In this document: positions 47,820 through 57,960 of the stretch, piece after piece
How positions within the stretch are numbered: the first letter of the stretch is position 1
Layout: each line of letters opens with the position of its first letter
Assembly (NCBI GenBank): GCA_902580895.1
Contig: CACHMJ010000001.1
Coordinates: 124,001 to 188,000 of the forward strand
Length of the DNA stretch: 64,000 nt
Direction of reading: 5' to 3'
From: an uncultured Pelagibacteraceae bacterium
GTDB taxonomy: Bacteria > Pseudomonadota > Alphaproteobacteria > Pelagibacterales > Pelagibacteraceae
The notes under the pieces: generated by a model
Database searches by the model: none
What the model was told of the DNA's origin: nothing
What the model saw: the letters and a program-made list of their open reading frames with translations, nothing else
Made by a program: the position numbers and the translations under genes

Positions 47820-49625
47820 ATGAACACTATCGACAATATAAGAAATTTTTCAATTATTGCGCATATTGATCATGGAAAATCAACAATTGCAGATAGAATA
47901 ATTCATAAATGTGGAGGTTTGACAGAAAGGGAAATGAAAGCTCAAGTTTTAGACTCTATGGATATTGAAAGAGAAAGAGGAATCACAATTAAAGCTCAAA
48001 CAGTTAAGCTTAACTATATAGCCAGAGATGGAAAAGAATATATATTGAATATCATAGATACACCAGGACATGTTGATTTTAGTTATGAAGTTAGCAGATC
48101 TCTTTATGCATGTGAGGGTTCAATACTTATTGTTGATAGCACCCAGGGTGTTGAAGCGCAAACATTAGCTAATGTTTATCAAGCACTTGACACAAATCAT
48201 GAAATAATTCCAGTCTTAAATAAGATTGATTTACCAGCATCAGATTTAGAGAGAACTAGAAAACAAATTGAGGACGTGATTGGTATTGATACTGAAAACG
48301 CTATTTCATGTTCTGGAAAAACTGGAGAAGGCATCGATGAAATATTAGAACAAATAATAAATCGATTGCCAGGGCCAAAAGGTGATTTAGATCAAGATTT
48401 AAAATGTTTACTAGTAGATAGTTGGTACGACACATACCTTGGAGTAGTAATATTAGTAAGAGTTATAAATGGAAAGATTGCTAAAAATATGAAAATTAAG
48501 ATGCTTTCAACAAATCAAGATTATGTTGTTGAAAAAGTTGGTGTATTCACGCCCAAACCAAAAGATATTAACGAGTTAAATGCTGGTGAGATCGGTTTTA
48601 TTACAACAGGAATTAAAGTTTTATCTGATACAAAAGTAGGAGACACCATCTGCGACGCTTCTAAGCCATCGGTAAATCCATTACCTGGCTTTAAACCGAG
48701 TAAACCTGTTGTATTTTGTGGGTTGTTTCCAGTCGACAGTTCAGAATACCAAAAATTAAAAGATGGATTAGCAAAACTTCAATTAAATGATGCGAGTTTT
48801 TCATTTGAAGCTGAGTCTTCATCTGCTCTAGGTTTAGGTTTTAGATGTGGTTTTTTGGGACTGCTTCATCTTGAAATCATTACAGAGAGATTAGAGAGAG
48901 AATTTGATGTTAATTTGCTAACAACAACACCAGGTGTTGTTTATAAAGTAAATTTGAACAAAGGAAATACGATTGATTTACAAAACCCATCAAGCTTACC
49001 TGATCCTACATTAATTAAATCTATTGAAGAGCCCTGGATAAAAGCTACAGTTATAACACCAGATCAATATTTAGGTTCAATAATAAAATTATGCCAGGAT
49101 AAAAGAGGTATTCAAACCAATTTAACTTATTCAGGCAATAGAGCAGTTTTAAGTTATGAGCTACCTTTAAATGAAGTTGTTTTTGACTTTAATGATAGAA
49201 TAAAATCAATGACAAGTGGGTATGCAAGTTTTGATTACGAAATAATCGAACATCGAGAAGGAGAATTGGTAAAACTGGGAATTTTAGTAAATGCTGAACC
49301 AGTTGATGCACTAGCAATGATGATCCATAAAGATTTTGCTCAAAGAACAGGAAGAGAAGTTTGTGAAAAATTAAAAGATTTAATTCCAAGACATAATTTT
49401 ATGATACCAGTACAAGCTGCAATAGGTGGTAAAATAATTGCTAGAGAAACTATTAAAGGATTTAAAAAAGATGTCTTAACTAAAATTCATGGTGGAGGAG
49501 CAACTGATCGAAAGAGAAAACTTTTAGAAAAACAAAAAAAAGGAAAAGCGAGATCAAAACAATTTGGAAGAGTTGAAATTCCACAGGAGGCTTTTATTGG
49601 AGTTTTAAAAATTAATAAAGAATAA
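47820..49625 (+). CDS. lepA: Elongation factor 4 (LepA)
   Basis: A 601-residue translational GTPase. G1 is [10 protein letters not shown]3 is [17 protein letters not shown]4 is [11 protein letters not shown], and the LepA-specific C-terminal domain ends with [18 protein letters not shown] and YGGDxTRK-like [19 protein letters not shown]. It remodels stalled ribosomes. It follows pheT by 7 nt and closes the translation gene run; the sugar module begins 4 nt later. Confidence 0.98.
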
Positions 49626-49629
49626 TTAA

Positions 49630-50646
49630 ATGAAAAGAATAAATTGGGGAATAATTGGACTTGGAAATATAGCCAATCGTCATTTAAAAAGTTTTGAAAA
49701 GTCATTAAATAGCAAATTAAAAGGTGTAGCGAGTAGAAATCTAGAAAACTTAAAAAATTTCAAAAAAAAAGTTAAAATTGATGACAAATTTTATTTTGAT
49801 AATTATGAAGATTTAATAAAGAATTCAGAAATAGATATTATCTATATAGCGTTACCTAATTCATATCATTATGAGTGGATCAATAAGTGTATCGATCATA
49901 ATAAACATATACTTGTCGAAAAACCAATTACGGAAAATTTTTTTCAACTTGAAAAAATAAAAAATAGATTATTACAAAAAAAATCAAATGTCTTAATTTA
50001 TGAAGGGTTTATGTATAAATATCACCCTCAAATAAAAAAAGTTTTAGATCTAGTAAATAATAATGAGATAGGAGAAATAAAAAAAATTGTCTCAAGTTTT
50101 GGAGTTAATTTACTAACAAAAAAATATTTTTGGTTTTTTAAAAAAAAAAGAAAAATAGATAAAGAAAACAGATTATTTAACAAAAAATTAGGGGGAGGAA
50201 GTATTTTGGACCTTGGCTGTTATCCAGTATCATTTACAACAATGCTGTTAGAAAAGTTTAATTTTATCAATTTCGAGGATTATAAAGTTCTAAATAAAAA
50301 AGTTGAGATTGGAGAGTCAGGTGTTGATGTTGACTCAAAAATTGAAATGATAGCAAAAGGTAGCATCACTATAAAATTATCATCATCTTTCAAAAAAAAT
50401 ATTGGATCTGCAACTGAGATTCATGGGTCTAGAGGAAGCATAGAAATATTAAATACATGGTCAGGTTCATCAAACATAATTCTTAAAAAAGGGGATAAAA
50501 AGAATATAATAAGATTTAATAAAATTGATGATACCTATTTTGATCAATTAAATGTGATTTCAAACGATTTACTAAATAAAAATATAGGTCAAAATTTAGA
50601 TAATATGCTTCTTAATATGAAAATAATTGATCAATGGCTGAATTAA
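49630..50646 (+). CDS. Gfo/Idh/MocA-family sugar oxidoreductase
   Basis: A 338-residue NAD(P)-dependent dehydrogenase. The Rossmann fold starts with INWGIIGLGNIANRHLKSF, the lysine motif is ILVEKPITEN (EKP), and the C-terminal substrate domain includes GGGSILDLGCYPVSFTTM with the D-x3-H-like position altered to D-x2-C-Y-P. Members oxidise or reduce nucleotide or free sugars. In this context it may act on an activated sugar of the adjacent module. It lies 4 nt after lepA and overlaps the GT17 gene by 13 bp. Confidence 0.88.
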   Translation: MKRINWGIIGLGNIANRHLKSFEKSLNSKLKGVASRNLENLKNFKKKVKIDDKFYFDNYEDLIKNSEIDIIYIALPNSYHYEWINKCIDHNKHILVEKPITENFFQLEKIKNRLLQKKSNVLIYEGFMYKYHPQIKKVLDLVNNNEIGEIKKIVSSFGVNLLTKKYFWFFKKKRKIDKENRLFNKKLGGGSILDLGCYPVSFTTMLLEKFNFINFEDYKVLNKKVEIGESGVDVDSKIEMIAKGSITIKLSSSFKKNIGSATEIHGSRGSIEILNTWSGSSNIILKKGDKKNIIRFNKIDDTYFDQLNVISNDLLNKNIGQNLDNMLLNMKIIDQWLN

Positions 50647-51452
50647 AAAAAAATAAATTATTAGATTGTATTACATTCTTTGATAACAATTTTATGTTTC
50701 AAATTAGATATAATGTTTTAGTTAATTATGTAGATTATTTTGTAGTATGTGAGTCTTTGTTTGATCATAAAGGGAATGCTAAAAAACAAAATTTTATTTG
50801 GAGAGACGAATATAAAAAAGAAAAAATCAAATATTTTTTATTAGAAACACCATTTCCTCAAAATACTAATCCATGGGAAAATCAGGCGATACAAAGAGAA
50901 TTTCTGTTAGATTGCACAGATTTTGCTGATAAAGAGGATTATATTTTTTTTTCTGACCCTGATGAAATTCCTAAACCGGAAATTTTAAAAAAATTTGAAT
51001 TAAAAAAAAAATATGGGATCTTTTTACAGGAGTGTTTTAATTATAAATTTAATTTATTTAACAAGTATGAGTCACCATGGGAAGGAACAAGAGTTGCAAA
51101 AAAAAAAAATTTAAAATCTATAGATTTTATGAGACAAAAAATAAAAAGAAAAAATTTGAAATATAATTTTTTGAGATTTGATAAAGAAAAAAGTATTCAA
51201 ATATTTGAAAATTCAGGTTGGCATTTTAACAATGTGATGTCTCATGAGCAAATTTCTCTGAAATTAAAAACTTTTGCTCATACAGAGTTTACAAATGATA
51301 ATTTTTCTGCACCAGAAATTATAAAAGATAAAATTAATAAGCAGATTGATTTATTCAATAGAGGTCATAAATATGAAAAAGTAAAAATGGATAATTCTTT
51401 TCCAGAGTATATTTTACAAAATCAGGAAAAATATTTTGAATGGATACTCTAA
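50634..51452 (+). CDS. Glycosyltransferase family 17 protein
   Basis: A 272-residue protein with the GT17 pattern: LDCITFFDNNFMFQIRYN at the N-terminus, the metal-site acid cluster FFSDPDEIPKP (about 104-114) and the C-terminal GWHFNNVMSHEQISLKLKTFAHTEF. GT17 includes beta-1,4-N-acetylglucosaminyltransferases. The likely job is adding a sugar to a surface glycan. The only reasonable ATG overlaps the preceding gene by 13 bp. It converges with the GT61 gene, 13 bp apart. Confidence 0.85.
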   Translation: MAELKKNKLLDCITFFDNNFMFQIRYNVLVNYVDYFVVCESLFDHKGNAKKQNFIWRDEYKKEKIKYFLLETPFPQNTNPWENQAIQREFLLDCTDFADKEDYIFFSDPDEIPKPEILKKFELKKKYGIFLQECFNYKFNLFNKYESPWEGTRVAKKKNLKSIDFMRQKIKRKNLKYNFLRFDKEKSIQIFENSGWHFNNVMSHEQISLKLKTFAHTEFTNDNFSAPEIIKDKINKQIDLFNRGHKYEKVKMDNSFPEYILQNQEKYFEWIL

Positions 51453-51465
51453 ATTTTAAATAAAA

Positions 51466-52542
51466 TTAAATCTTCAAATCTTCGATATTAATTTTCATAT
51501 CACCAAATTTAGAATTAGCTTGTTTAGCTTTTATAAATGAGTAATTAAGATTTTGAATATTTGAAATATTTCTAAAAACATCACAATCAAAATTTGGATT
51601 TCCAATTTCTATTACTTTAGTAGATGGTTCACAAAATATTAAATTCGTTAAACCTGCACCATGAGATCCAATAATAATTTTTGCCTCATTAAATATCTTT
51701 ATTTGTTCATTAAAAGAAAGCTCTGACAATTTTATTATCAAAAATTCTTTTTTTTTTAAGTAGTCAATTATTTCCAGATTATTTACAAGTTTATTATGAT
51801 TAAAAATTGAGTCTGATCTATCAATAAAAATATTTTCATTTTTTTTTTTATTTAAACTAGAATTCTGTAAGAATATTTTTCTAATTGATTTTAAAATATC
51901 TTGGTCAACTTTAGCTACTGTCTCAAATTGATGTTTGTTAAGTTCCCAGTATGGATGACTTGGTATGGTAATCTTATCTGCATATAAATGTGTTATTTCA
52001 CTTCCATCTAAGATTTTATTTTTTGAAATATTGAAATATTCAAGACTATCCGTTTGAAATTTTTTTTTTATGTTAGGCATTAAAATAGCATCGAAGCTGT
52101 TCAAATCTTTAAACTTTTTAGTTATTATTAACTTAGGAATTGTATCTAGTATCCAGTGTCCATAATTTCCAATTGCAGATGCACCCTGAACAAGAGAAAG
52201 AATATTACCTTTTATTTTTTTTTGAATAAATTTTCTCGTTCCAGTTTTGATAATTATATTTTTATCTAAATCAACCAAATGATTATTAATAAGCTGGGTT
52301 GACAATTTTTTGTAAATTACACCTTTTTTAATAATAGCCACATTTTGTGATGAGTCGGTATACATTCTTGCATTATCAATCTCAAAAATTTCATATTCTT
52401 TTATACTATTTTTTGAAAATTTTATCTTAATCAAATTAAATCCATCATTAGATTTTTTTTTGATAGGACCATAGATTACGTCAAAAAAAATTTTTACAAA
52501 AAAAAAGTAAATTTTTCTAAATATCTTCCTTAAAAAATACAC
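51466..52542 (-). CDS. GT61 (DUF563) family glycosyltransferase
   Basis: A 358-residue protein. Core family segments are QGASAIGNYGHWILDTIPKL (NYGHWxxDxxP), NIFIDRSDS, and the C-terminal KIIIGSHGAGLTNLIFCEPSTKVIEI, which together define GT61/DUF563 capsular or EPS transferases. A hydrophobic N-terminal stretch (about 8-27) may associate it with the membrane. It overlaps the aminotransferase by one base in the minus-strand set. Confidence 0.86.
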   Translation of the reverse strand: MYFLRKIFRKIYFFFVKIFFDVIYGPIKKKSNDGFNLIKIKFSKNSIKEYEIFEIDNARMYTDSSQNVAIIKKGVIYKKLSTQLINNHLVDLDKNIIIKTGTRKFIQKKIKGNILSLVQGASAIGNYGHWILDTIPKLIITKKFKDLNSFDAILMPNIKKKFQTDSLEYFNISKNKILDGSEITHLYADKITIPSHPYWELNKHQFETVAKVDQDILKSIRKIFLQNSSLNKKKNENIFIDRSDSIFNHNKLVNNLEIIDYLKKKEFLIIKLSELSFNEQIKIFNEAKIIIGSHGAGLTNLIFCEPSTKVIEIGNPNFDCDVFRNISNIQNLNYSFIKAKQANSKFGDMKINIEDLKI

Positions 52543-53657
52543 TATATAAAAAATTTGTTTTTTTGGATAACTTCAAAAATACGCTCGATTTGTTTTTTTT
52601 TTATCCCTGGATAAAAAGGAAGGGATAAAATATTTTTGGAAATATTTTCTGTAATTTTAAGATCTTTCCTTTTAGTTTTTTTGTAAGCTGTTTGTAAATG
52701 TATTGGTATTTCATAATGAATTTGAGAATAGATATTTTCCTTTTTTAACTCTTTCATTAAAAGATCTCTTTTTTTAACAATAATTGGATATACATAATAA
52801 GCACTTTCTGCTTGAGGCATAACATGAATTCTTCTGATACCTAAAGAGTCACATTTTTTGTCATAAATTTTAGCAAGTTTTTTTCTTACACCATTGTTTT
52901 TCTTTAAATCTTTGATTTTTAAATTTAGAAAAGCTGCTTGAAGCTCGTCCATTCGAGAATTAAATCCAACAATTTTGTGATCTTTATCTTTAAAATTTAC
53001 ACTACCGTAATTTGCAAAAAGGGTTGCTTTTTGAAAAAATTTTTTGGAGTTACATATTATTGCACCACCATCACCAACTGCTCCAATATTTTTACTTGGA
53101 TAAAAACTCATACAAGCAATATCACCGAAATTTCCTACAATTTTATTCTTAAATCTAGCTAGTTGCGATTGTGCTATGTCTTCTATAATAAATAGTTTAT
53201 GTTTTTTGGCAAATTTGCAGATATAATCCATTTTAGAAGGATTTCCATAGAGGTGAGTTACCATTATAGCCTTAGTTCTTTTAGTGAGTTTTTTTTTTAA
53301 TAAGTTTTCATCCATCTGAAGATATTTGTCATTAATATCAACAAAAACAGGCTTACAATTATTAAGAGAAATAGCATAAGCGGATGATATCCATGTATTT
53401 GAAGTAGTTAAAATTTCATCTCCGTTTTTTAGACCTAAAGATTTTAGAGCAATAATCAATGCATCTGTGCCAGAATTTAAGCATAAAGAATATTTGCATT
53501 TAAATATCTTACAAATTTGTTTTTCAAGGATGTGATTATAATTTGACTTTATAAATGAAGAATTATCATAAATTTTATTGATCAAATTAAAGTACTTTGT
53601 TTTATATTTTCTATTAACCAGTCCTAGATCAACAAATTTAATTTTATTTTTAGTCAT
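52542..53657 (-). CDS. DegT/DnrJ/EryC1/StrS-family sugar aminotransferase
   Basis: A 371-residue PLP enzyme. It shows CLNSGTDALIIALKSLGLKNGDEI, TSNTWISSAYAI, the aspartate in IIEDIAQSQ, the PLP lysine in MSFYPSKNIGAVGDGGAI and GFNSRMDELQAAFLNLKI. Family members transaminate keto-sugar nucleotides to amino sugars. Next to a UXS-like decarboxylase and an N-formyltransferase it probably acts on a 4-keto-pentose or related keto sugar. It overlaps the formyltransferase by 8 bp. Confidence 0.9.
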   Translation of the reverse strand: MTKNKIKFVDLGLVNRKYKTKYFNLINKIYDNSSFIKSNYNHILEKQICKIFKCKYSLCLNSGTDALIIALKSLGLKNGDEILTTSNTWISSAYAISLNNCKPVFVDINDKYLQMDENLLKKKLTKRTKAIMVTHLYGNPSKMDYICKFAKKHKLFIIEDIAQSQLARFKNKIVGNFGDIACMSFYPSKNIGAVGDGGAIICNSKKFFQKATLFANYGSVNFKDKDHKIVGFNSRMDELQAAFLNLKIKDLKKNNGVRKKLAKIYDKKCDSLGIRRIHVMPQAESAYYVYPIIVKKRDLLMKELKKENIYSQIHYEIPIHLQTAYKKTKRKDLKITENISKNILSLPFYPGIKKKQIERIFEVIQKNKFFI

Positions 53658-54573
53658 TCAATAAAGTATCTCTTGTGCTTTTAATTATCTTAGATGGTTT
53701 CATAATTTTATCATTGTAAAAAATTTTTTTAATAGTTATTGGGCCGTTTTTACAAAGACAATCTATATTACCATTTTTATAAATTTGTGTAATTCTCCCA
53801 GGTATAATCCCTTCGAATTTTCTATTTTTCTTAATTGACGATTCCAAGATTATAATTTTTTTCTCTCTCAGATAGCAAAATGCTCCAAAGGATTTACTTT
53901 TACAAGCTCTTATTAAATTATGTACATCCTCTTTCTTCTTAAAAAAATTTATTAAACCGTCCTCAGGATTTCTAGAGCAATTCCAAGTTTCTTTTTTACT
54001 GTCATTTTTTTTAAGCTTTATCCTATTTTGTAAATATTTTAAAATTATTTTTGATATATTTATTTTTATATATCTACCTATTTTATTTTGTATTGTCTGA
54101 TAATTATCATATTTCTTTATGTCTATTTTCTTTTGTAAAATTATCTTACCAGAATCCAATTTTGGTACAACTTGATGAAAAGTTAAATAAATTGAATTTC
54201 TACCCATTAAGATGGCCCAATTTATTGAGGCCCTTCCTTTTTGTTCTGGCAATCTACCGTGATGAATATTAATGAAATTCGACAATTTTAAAATTTTTTT
54301 TTCAAAAATTTTGTTAAATGTTGAGATTAAAACTACATCAGGTTTTAAGTTTTTAATGAAATTAAATACGTGGTTTTTTTTGTCAGATTTTAATATTTTT
54401 ATTTTATTATCAATTTTCTTTAAATCTATATTGGAATAATAAAATTTATCTGTTTTTGGTACGATAATCCCTTTTATTTTTAAAATTTTATTTTTTCTTA
54501 AACCTTCCAAGGAGTATTTACCCATGAAGCCAAATGCAAAAATTACTACTGATAAGTTTTTATTATTATGCAC
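53650..54573 (-). CDS. Formyltransferase-family protein, probable sugar N-formyltransferase
   Basis: A 307-residue protein of the formyl_trans_N family. The catalytic triad pattern is visible: N and H in FINIHHGRLPEQKGRASINW (N-x-H) and D in VVPKLDSGKIILQK. The C-terminal domain (about 205-300) contains IRACKSKSFGAFCYLREKKI, typical of the Fmt/ArnA C-subdomain. The N-terminus is not that of methionyl-tRNA formyltransferase, and the context is sugar synthesis, so formylation of an amino sugar nucleotide from 10-formyl-THF is the best guess. It overlaps both neighbours by 8 bp. Confidence 0.82.
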   Translation of the reverse strand: MHNNKNLSVVIFAFGFMGKYSLEGLRKNKILKIKGIIVPKTDKFYYSNIDLKKIDNKIKILKSDKKNHVFNFIKNLKPDVVLISTFNKIFEKKILKLSNFINIHHGRLPEQKGRASINWAILMGRNSIYLTFHQVVPKLDSGKIILQKKIDIKKYDNYQTIQNKIGRYIKINISKIILKYLQNRIKLKKNDSKKETWNCSRNPEDGLINFFKKKEDVHNLIRACKSKSFGAFCYLREKKIIILESSIKKNRKFEGIIPGRITQIYKNGNIDCLCKNGPITIKKIFYNDKIMKPSKIIKSTRDTLLND

Positions 54574-55609
54574 TTAATTTATTATATTTGAGAACTCTAT
54601 ACACACCCTCTTTCACAGATACTTTTGGATAATATTTTGTATCATGTATAGCTTTATTAATATTGGGACATCTCCTCATAGGTTCATCTGCTGGATAATT
54701 TTTTGGATAATCGATTAATTTAAATTTATTTTTTTTTTTCAATAGATTATCAAAAATTTTTACTAGTTTGATCATGCTGATTTCATTAAATTGATTTCCA
54801 ATATTATAAATTTCCCCGAATTTTCCTAATAAAATTACTCGAAGAAACCCAATCATAGCATCTGTAATATAACAAAAAGTTCTTGTTTGTCTTCCATTTC
54901 CGTGGATCAAAATTTTTTGATTATTATTAATTTTATTAATTATATTTGGTATAACTCTATAGTCTTTTTTGTTCATAAGTGGTCCGAAAACATTAAAAGG
55001 TCTAATTATTTTAATTTTTGAATTAAAATAATTTTTATAGATATAACATAAAGTTTCTCCTACTCTTTTACCTTCATCATAACATGATCTGGGTCCAAAT
55101 GAATTTACATTTCCATAGTAAGTTTCTTTAGTTGGAATATTTTTTCTATCCGGATTTCCGTAAATTTCACTTGAACTAAAAAAAACAAGCTCAGATTTAC
55201 ATCTTAAGGAGTGTTTAAGTAATTTTTCTAAACCATTATAAGATACCGAAAGTGTTTCTAAAGGATATTTCTTATAAATGAAAGGACTAGCAATACCAGC
55301 CAAGAAAATAATTTTATCATATTTTTTTTTAATTTCAATTCTTGAAATATCTTTTCTATAAAATTTTATATGTTTGTGATTTTTCGGAATATCCGGATTA
55401 TTTTTCGATGATATAAAGTTATCATAACAATCAAGCTTAAACTTAATTTTTTCCTTATCAATAAGCTCTTTGAAAACCTCAGTAAAGTACTTTCCTAAAA
55501 AACCATTTGCCCCTACTAGCAAAATTCTTTGATTTCTAAGTTTTTTTTTACAGTCTTTGATTCCTGAAATAATTTCAAAGATGTCATTTTTGTAAAAATT
55601 ATTATGCAT
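54566..55609 (-). CDS. Extended SDR, UDP-glucuronate decarboxylase (UXS)-like
   Basis: A 347-residue NAD-dependent nucleotide-sugar enzyme with glycine motif [24 protein letters not shown], and the active-site stretch [16 protein letters not shown] (YxxxK). That stretch is almost the diagnostic UXS signature, which converts UDP-glucuronate to UDP-xylose through a 4-keto intermediate. RPFNVFGP and [17 protein letters not shown] follow. A dTDP- or GDP-sugar dehydratase is an alternative. It is first of four minus-strand sugar genes and starts 83 bp from tRNA-Ser. Confidence 0.85.
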
Positions 55610-55692: not shown

Positions 55693-55782
55693 GGAGAGGT
55701 GGCCGAGTGGTTGAAGGCGCACGCTTGGAAAGCGTGTATAGAGGAAACTCTATCATGGGTTCGAATCCCATTCTCTCCGCCA
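55693..55782 (+). tRNA. tRNA-Ser (anticodon GGA)
   Basis: A 90-nt class II tRNA with encoded CCA (55780-55782). Acceptor GGAGAGG (55693-55699) pairs with TCTCTCC (55772-55778), with a G-T pair at position 7. The anticodon stem CACGC/GCGTG encloses TTGGAAA, giving GGA. The long variable arm TAGAGGAAACTCTA and T-loop TTCGAAT confirm serine identity. It borders the sugar module. Confidence 0.97.

Positions 55783-55893: not shown

Positions 55894-57960
<2,067 letters not shown>

Follow-up and report, generated by a model that had tools for sequence, protein, structure and literature searches.

A swappable glycan-gene block between lepA and gyrB in a SAR11 genome and a candidate route to an N-formylated amino pentose

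The interval between lepA and gyrB of an uncultured Pelagibacteraceae bacterium of the SAR11 group holds a block of six putative surface-sugar genes, which we analysed in a 64,000-nucleotide stretch of its genome (assembly GCA_902580895.1, contig CACHMJ010000001.1, positions 124,001 to 188,000; hereafter the window). Next to the conserved left flank, lepA (47820..49625, plus strand), two genes on the same strand encode a Gfo/Idh/MocA oxidoreductase (Gfo; 49630..50646; Pfam GFO_IDH_MocA, 87 bits) and a GT17 glycosyltransferase (50634..51452; Glyco_transf_17, 53 bits), and overlap by 13 bp. Four minus-strand genes face them. In the order of transcription these encode an extended short-chain dehydrogenase/reductase (SDR; 54566..55609; Epimerase), a sugar N-formyltransferase (FT; 53650..54573; Formyl_trans_N and Formyl_trans_C), a DegT sugar aminotransferase (AT; 52542..53657; DegT_DnrJ_EryC1) and a GT61 glycosyltransferase (51466..52542; Glyco_transf_61, 92 bits), with overlaps of 8 bp at the SDR/FT and FT/AT junctions and 1 bp between AT and GT61. 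A tRNA-Ser(gga), located by ARAGORN (55693..55782, plus strand), lies inside the hypervariable site between SDR and the conserved right flank, gyrB (55897..57960, plus strand). All six block proteins match their Pfam models above the cut-off. Open reading frames, Pfam and the tRNA scan thus bear out the initial annotation in placing six genes between lepA and tRNA-Ser/gyrB, with overlaps of 1-8 bp among the decarboxylase-like, FT and AT genes. The same six-gene order is intact in another genome (L002; protein identity 78-93%), and a further one (L005) keeps SDR-FT-AT-GT61, with an SDR 78% identical to that of the window and lower values for the other proteins. The block genes compared have dN/dS ratios of 0.03-0.16, and lepA and gyrB of 0.04-0.09. 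Because gene order is kept in both genomes and dN/dS is low, we regard the block genes as real and maintained; the SDR-FT-AT-GT61 operon is under purifying selection in the carriers compared. The L005 copy of the GT61 gene (L005:11041-12149) has no ATG, GTG or TTG at the usual start and its frame is open upstream, so that it may begin at a less common start codon or contain an error in the sequence.

The block consists of two convergent transcription units that recur apart. The Gfo-GT17 pair is found beside lepA without SDR, FT or AT in four islands (L067, L077, L080 and L083), while the L005 site combines the four-gene operon with a distant GT17 and with a C-methyltransferase, bearing an N-terminal extension, in the place of Gfo. 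As the two parts recur separately, the functional unit is the minus-strand operon, and the single six-gene module first proposed is not supported. The operon is rare and was found complete in three genomes. Across 147 genomes of the family an FT ortholog occurs in the window's own genome alone; the other genomes with at least part of the operon are L002, L005 and L003, the last of which is cut off inside SDR. In wider searches of 372 genomes at class level and 398 at phylum level, AT relatives all stayed below the set threshold, and FT gave only weak or ArnA-type matches. A phage origin of the operon was considered and rejected: a single-sequence query found no FT relative in IMG/VR, and the identity of its SDR relatives does not exceed 48%. 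Pelagibacter phage Mosig EXVC030M encodes a DegT aminotransferase, annotated as ArnB-like, that is 31.7% identical to the window AT (MT647606.1:64193-65119).

The place that the block occupies is itself variable. Of the 61 genomes of the genus in which lepA and gyrB were mapped, 37, the window's own included, carry the two genes in the same orientation on a single contig. The distance between them measures 212-365 bp in eight of the 37 sites and 1.1-13.8 kb in the other 29. Each of the three short sites that were scanned for tRNAs contains a tRNA-Ser, and in one genome (G577) only some 8 bp separate the lepA stop codon from the tRNA, as against 6 kb in the window. Filled sites hold mostly glycan genes, and these may precede the tRNA, follow it or do both. 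The commonest families among 139 scanned island proteins are NAD-dependent epimerases, GT17, GT2, DUF4422, methyltransferases, Gfo/Idh/MocA, GT61, dTDP-sugar isomerase and DegT, and the gene adjoining lepA is most often a GT17. Even a more distant alphaproteobacterium (L006) has sugar genes and a tRNA-Ser near lepA. A surface-glycan setting, as originally suggested, is therefore well supported, and the comparison of presence and absence across the 37 genomes reveals a hypervariable site with an exchangeable block. Replacement flexible genomic islands are fixed positions in the chromosome at which surface-glycan genes are exchanged (PMC4033161), and the lepA-gyrB site behaves alike, with its fixed place, its glycan cargo differing between relatives and its empty sites. 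SAR11 HVR2 likewise holds exchangeable surface-glycan genes at a fixed place, but it is flanked by 23S and 5S rRNA (PMC2217521), whereas the lepA-gyrB site lies about 150 kb from the 5S rRNA in a complete genome (G078) and is therefore not HVR2. We found no paper naming this SAR11 site in a limited, mostly open-access literature; it adds a small swappable glycan site, distinct from HVR2, to those of SAR11. Insertion by an integrase at an att site was also considered and rejected: the ends share only a 10-bp AT-rich match, and the 25 families most frequent in the islands include no integrase.

What does the first enzyme of the operon do? A phmmer search of PDB with SDR gave human UXS1 (2b69) at 160 bits, ArnA at 75 and Psychrobacter cryohalolentis Pcryo_0617 at 74, and human UXS1 also ranked first against the predicted fold (model mean pLDDT 84). 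NCBIfam scores reached 96 bits against a cut-off of 294 for PRK11908, the stand-alone ArnA-type decarboxylase, and 83 against 777 for ArnA. The tree resolves three groups, namely ArnA with PRK11908, canonical UXS (support 94/94) and a clade containing SDR (98/97), and places the window enzyme outside the UXS clade, in its sister clade. SDR and its relatives keep the catalytic Tyr-Lys, the Ser/Thr-x-Glu, the Asn and an Arg aligned with ArnA R619, all common to ArnA/PRK11908, UXS and the SDR clade; RffG, a dTDP-glucose 4,6-dehydratase, lacks the equivalent Arg. The clade is recognizable by sequence through the motif RPFN, in which Pro replaces the Ile or Leu that precedes FN in UXS (RIFN), and a mostly SSSE motif where UXS has STSE, although the RPFN proline is common to ArnA too and is a single correlated change. 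Sequence, predicted fold and kept residues hence agree with the earlier description of SDR as a UXS-like decarboxylase, amended to a sister of UXS. In the structural comparison with UXS and ArnA the likeness to UXS1 stands, while an identity as ArnA decarboxylase is contradicted by the bit scores, the PRK11908 cut-off and the trees. According to PDB titles, Pcryo_0617 (8vr2) and Pcryo_0618 (8vr3) similarly pair a separate decarboxylase with a DegT aminotransferase for an O-antigen amino sugar; the window differs in an SDR nearer UXS1, an AT apparently nearer C3 enzymes and an FT, a formyltransferase being named in neither entry. Characterised N-formylated O-antigen sugars are mainly 6-deoxyhexoses, which would favor SDR acting as a 4,6-dehydratase or epimerase on the way to an N-formylated 6-deoxy amino hexose of the Qui3NFo/Qui4NFo kind. 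The LegB and RmlB models do match SDR weakly, and SDR families are hard to separate by sequence (PMC10338323). We nonetheless consider this route improbable: UXS scores more than 80 bits above all dehydratases, the decarboxylase Arg is kept while the Asp-Glu pair of RmlB is absent, five SDR relatives adjoin nucleotide-sugar 6-dehydrogenases, and no FdtA-type isomerase was found in the window genome, which is 82% complete.

The neighbors of the SDR relatives, which were collected with SDR as query and thus blind to neighbors, point to the fate of the decarboxylated sugar. At 14 of 18 bacterial loci and 13 of 17 loci on viral contigs (27/35), a C-methyltransferase of the Methyltransf_13/23/14 type is encoded no more than a few kb away, often accompanied by a Gfo enzyme and a small cupin. 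Flank lengths vary among these loci, and the viral locus L118 and the reference source L038 are one and the same contig. The corresponding figure for UXS loci is 0/68 (63 viral, 5 plasmid), obtained with methyltransferase references from the SDR clade's own neighbors, so that remote methyltransferases beside UXS could be missed. Such C-methyltransferases work next to a keto group, and the association therefore fits with a released 4-keto sugar. Enzymes of the SDR clade probably pass a 4-keto pentose on to a partner enzyme, and in the window operon amination and formylation probably take the place of C-methylation. A decarboxylase with such behavior is known from everninomicin biosynthesis, where the bifunctional EvdS6 releases 4-keto-xylose for later steps that include a C-4 branched sugar (PMC10338323); its sequence is remote (18-19% identity in the fold search), with TDE where the window SDR has an SSE motif. 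Nucleotide-sugar dehydrogenase partners fit a uronate substrate for the clade: at five loci (L091, L092, L122, L124 and L125), of which three belong to viral-classed contigs, the clade SDR has both a nucleotide-sugar 6-dehydrogenase and a glucose-1-phosphate cytidylyltransferase as neighbors. NCBIfam, run on three of these (L091:2676-6124, L092:767-3891 and L122:3225-6390), put the cytidylyltransferase over the cut-off in each. The arrangement suggests a route from CDP-glucose to a CDP-4-keto-pentose. In the window genome galU adjoins ugd, with a GalU match below the strict cut-off of the model, and no CDP-glucose-making cytidylyltransferase exceeds its cut-off. For these two reasons UDP is the likelier nucleotide, although, with five clade loci pairing SDR with a CDP-glucose-making enzyme, the choice of UDP in the initial annotation stays unproven.

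Comparison with the Arn systems accounts for one part of the operon. The best PDB match of FT is the formyltransferase domain of ArnA, with the catalytic Asn, His and Asp positions aligned, and its best NCBIfam model is ArnA, far below the full-length cut-off; these matches identify FT as a putative ArnA-like formyltransferase. AT scores 164 bits against the 631-bit cut-off of ArnB (PRK11658). The likeness to a split ArnA/ArnB pathway consequently holds for the three separate, overlapping genes and for FT, and fails for SDR and AT, which come from other family branches. Nor is a split ArnA new, since separate NCBIfam models exist and another Pseudomonadota genome of about 1.9 Mb has a split arn operon (L100:1-3876) with a DegT end, an ArnC-like gene, a formyltransferase, a PRK11908 decarboxylase and an ArnD-like gene. 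Such operons (PRK11908/RsU4kpxS) share with the window adjoining separate decarboxylase and formyltransferase genes; the differences are a PRK11908 score of 673 bits in L100 against 96 for the window SDR, and ArnC and ArnD against GT61. Judged by sequence, what distinguishes the SAR11 operon is the origin of its parts, a UXS-sister SDR, an AT apparently nearer C3 enzymes and an ArnA-type FT. In Arn systems ArnD later removes the formyl group. As the open reading frames of the block include no ArnC, ArnD or ArnT (ArnC and ArnD were not searched genome-wide) and GT61 closes the operon, the formyl group probably stays on the transferred sugar. We hold it very unlikely that this is a true Arn-like pathway, with a temporary formyl group and a positively charged aminoarabinose on lipid A as final product: three activities resemble ArnA and ArnB in outline, but the block lacks the later Arn genes, an E. 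coli ArnT query was unmatched in the window genome in a search without positive control, and AT and SDR fall outside the Arn subfamilies.

The aminotransferase complicates the position of the amino group. Its closest PDB sequences are 7b0d (281 bits), 7n63, QdtB (243) and WlaRG, with ArnB at 106, and identities are 31-38% to the C3-type group as against 24-26%. The predicted fold (model mean pLDDT 83) gives Z scores of 43.5-45.7 for 7b0d, WlaRG, WbpE, QdtB and Pcryo_0616 and 42.1 for ArnB, differences so small that sequence identity carries much of the weight. AT thus appears nearer to QdtB, WlaRG and WbpE than to ArnB, an assignment made from bit scores, identities and close Z values (45.7-42.1), and the initial comparison with ArnB does not survive the scores. 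Those of these relatives that have a known specificity act at C3. This affinity lends some credit to a scheme in which the six genes together serve a single route ending in a 3-formamido pentose: Gfo would oxidise C3 of the nucleotide-uronate as WbpB/WlbA do, AT would aminate C3 as WbpE does, FT would formylate and SDR would decarboxylate. The Gfo protein is indeed closest to a sugar 3-ketoreductase, and plasmid relatives of AT are often annotated beside Gfo/Idh/MocA or FdtA/QdtA genes. On the other hand, Gfo lies on the opposite strand, accompanies GT17 without SDR, FT or AT in four islands and is missing at L005, where the operon is present, and the SDR relatives point to a 4-keto product; we therefore think this scheme unlikely, though not negligible. 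QdtB and WlaRG act on dTDP-3-keto-6-deoxyhexoses. The window genome yielded no FdtA-type isomerase, and Gfo has no tie to the operon; the amino position is therefore not fixed at C3, and C4 would be the simpler chemistry despite the kinship of AT.

Based on these observations, we propose, with evenly divided confidence, that the block is cargo of an exchangeable lepA-gyrB glycan site and that the SDR-FT-AT-GT61 operon serves to synthesise and transfer an N-formylated amino pentose. The starting sugar, UDP-glucuronate, would come from two housekeeping enzymes, GalU and UDP-glucose dehydrogenase. SDR would oxidise C4, decarboxylate the sugar and release the 4-keto pentose, which AT would aminate, most simply at C4, before FT formylates the amine. 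GT61, a probable transferase, would then attach the modified sugar with the formyl group retained. The most likely product is a nucleotide-linked formamido-pentose, and the N-formylated amino pentose originally named as the simplest outcome is still the best single guess, given a decarboxylase-like SDR, an ArnA-like FT and a DegT AT. Several points weigh against this proposal. The data show the genes and their order, the selection on them, the variability of the site, the families and residues of the proteins and the neighbors of the SDR relatives; from these we infer the reactions, and the same applies to every substrate, product and step, to the nucleotide, to the amino position and to any effect on phage attachment or charge. 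AT appears nearer C3 than C4 enzymes, and some members of the SDR clade stand beside an enzyme that makes CDP-glucose, which means that the nucleotide may not be UDP. Changing Thr126 or Asn179 of EvdS6 to Ala leaves almost no reduced product (PMC10338323); the window SDR has Ser and Asn at these positions, and as Thr to Ser is a milder change than one to Ala, they do not decide whether the 4-keto sugar is released. Finally, absences from an incomplete genome are weak arguments.

Beyond this operon, we tentatively suggest, with confidence falling somewhat short of even, that the SDR clade comprises undescribed nucleotide-uronate decarboxylases, apart from UXS and ArnA and in part acting on CDP sugars, which give a 4-keto pentose to interchangeable partners: a C-methyltransferase with cupin and Gfo in most members, AT and FT in SAR11. 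Our search of the open literature found no paper on C-methylation of UDP-4-keto-xylose or decarboxylation of CDP-glucuronate. If the suggestion is correct, C-methylated and formamido pentoses would be new to marine bacteria and phages, and a rule of sugar diversification might be envisaged in which the 4-keto-forming enzyme is kept and its modifying partner is swapped. Two further arrangements were seen among the clade loci. Contigs classed as viral (L038, L110-L113, L115-L118 and L123) carry a cupin - C-methyltransferase - SDR cassette, some with Gfo in addition, which phages may move. At the clade locus L089 (4994-8914) the genes after SDR encode a radical-SAM/SPASM protein and a DegT aminotransferase in place of a C-methyltransferase, possibly another exchange of partners.

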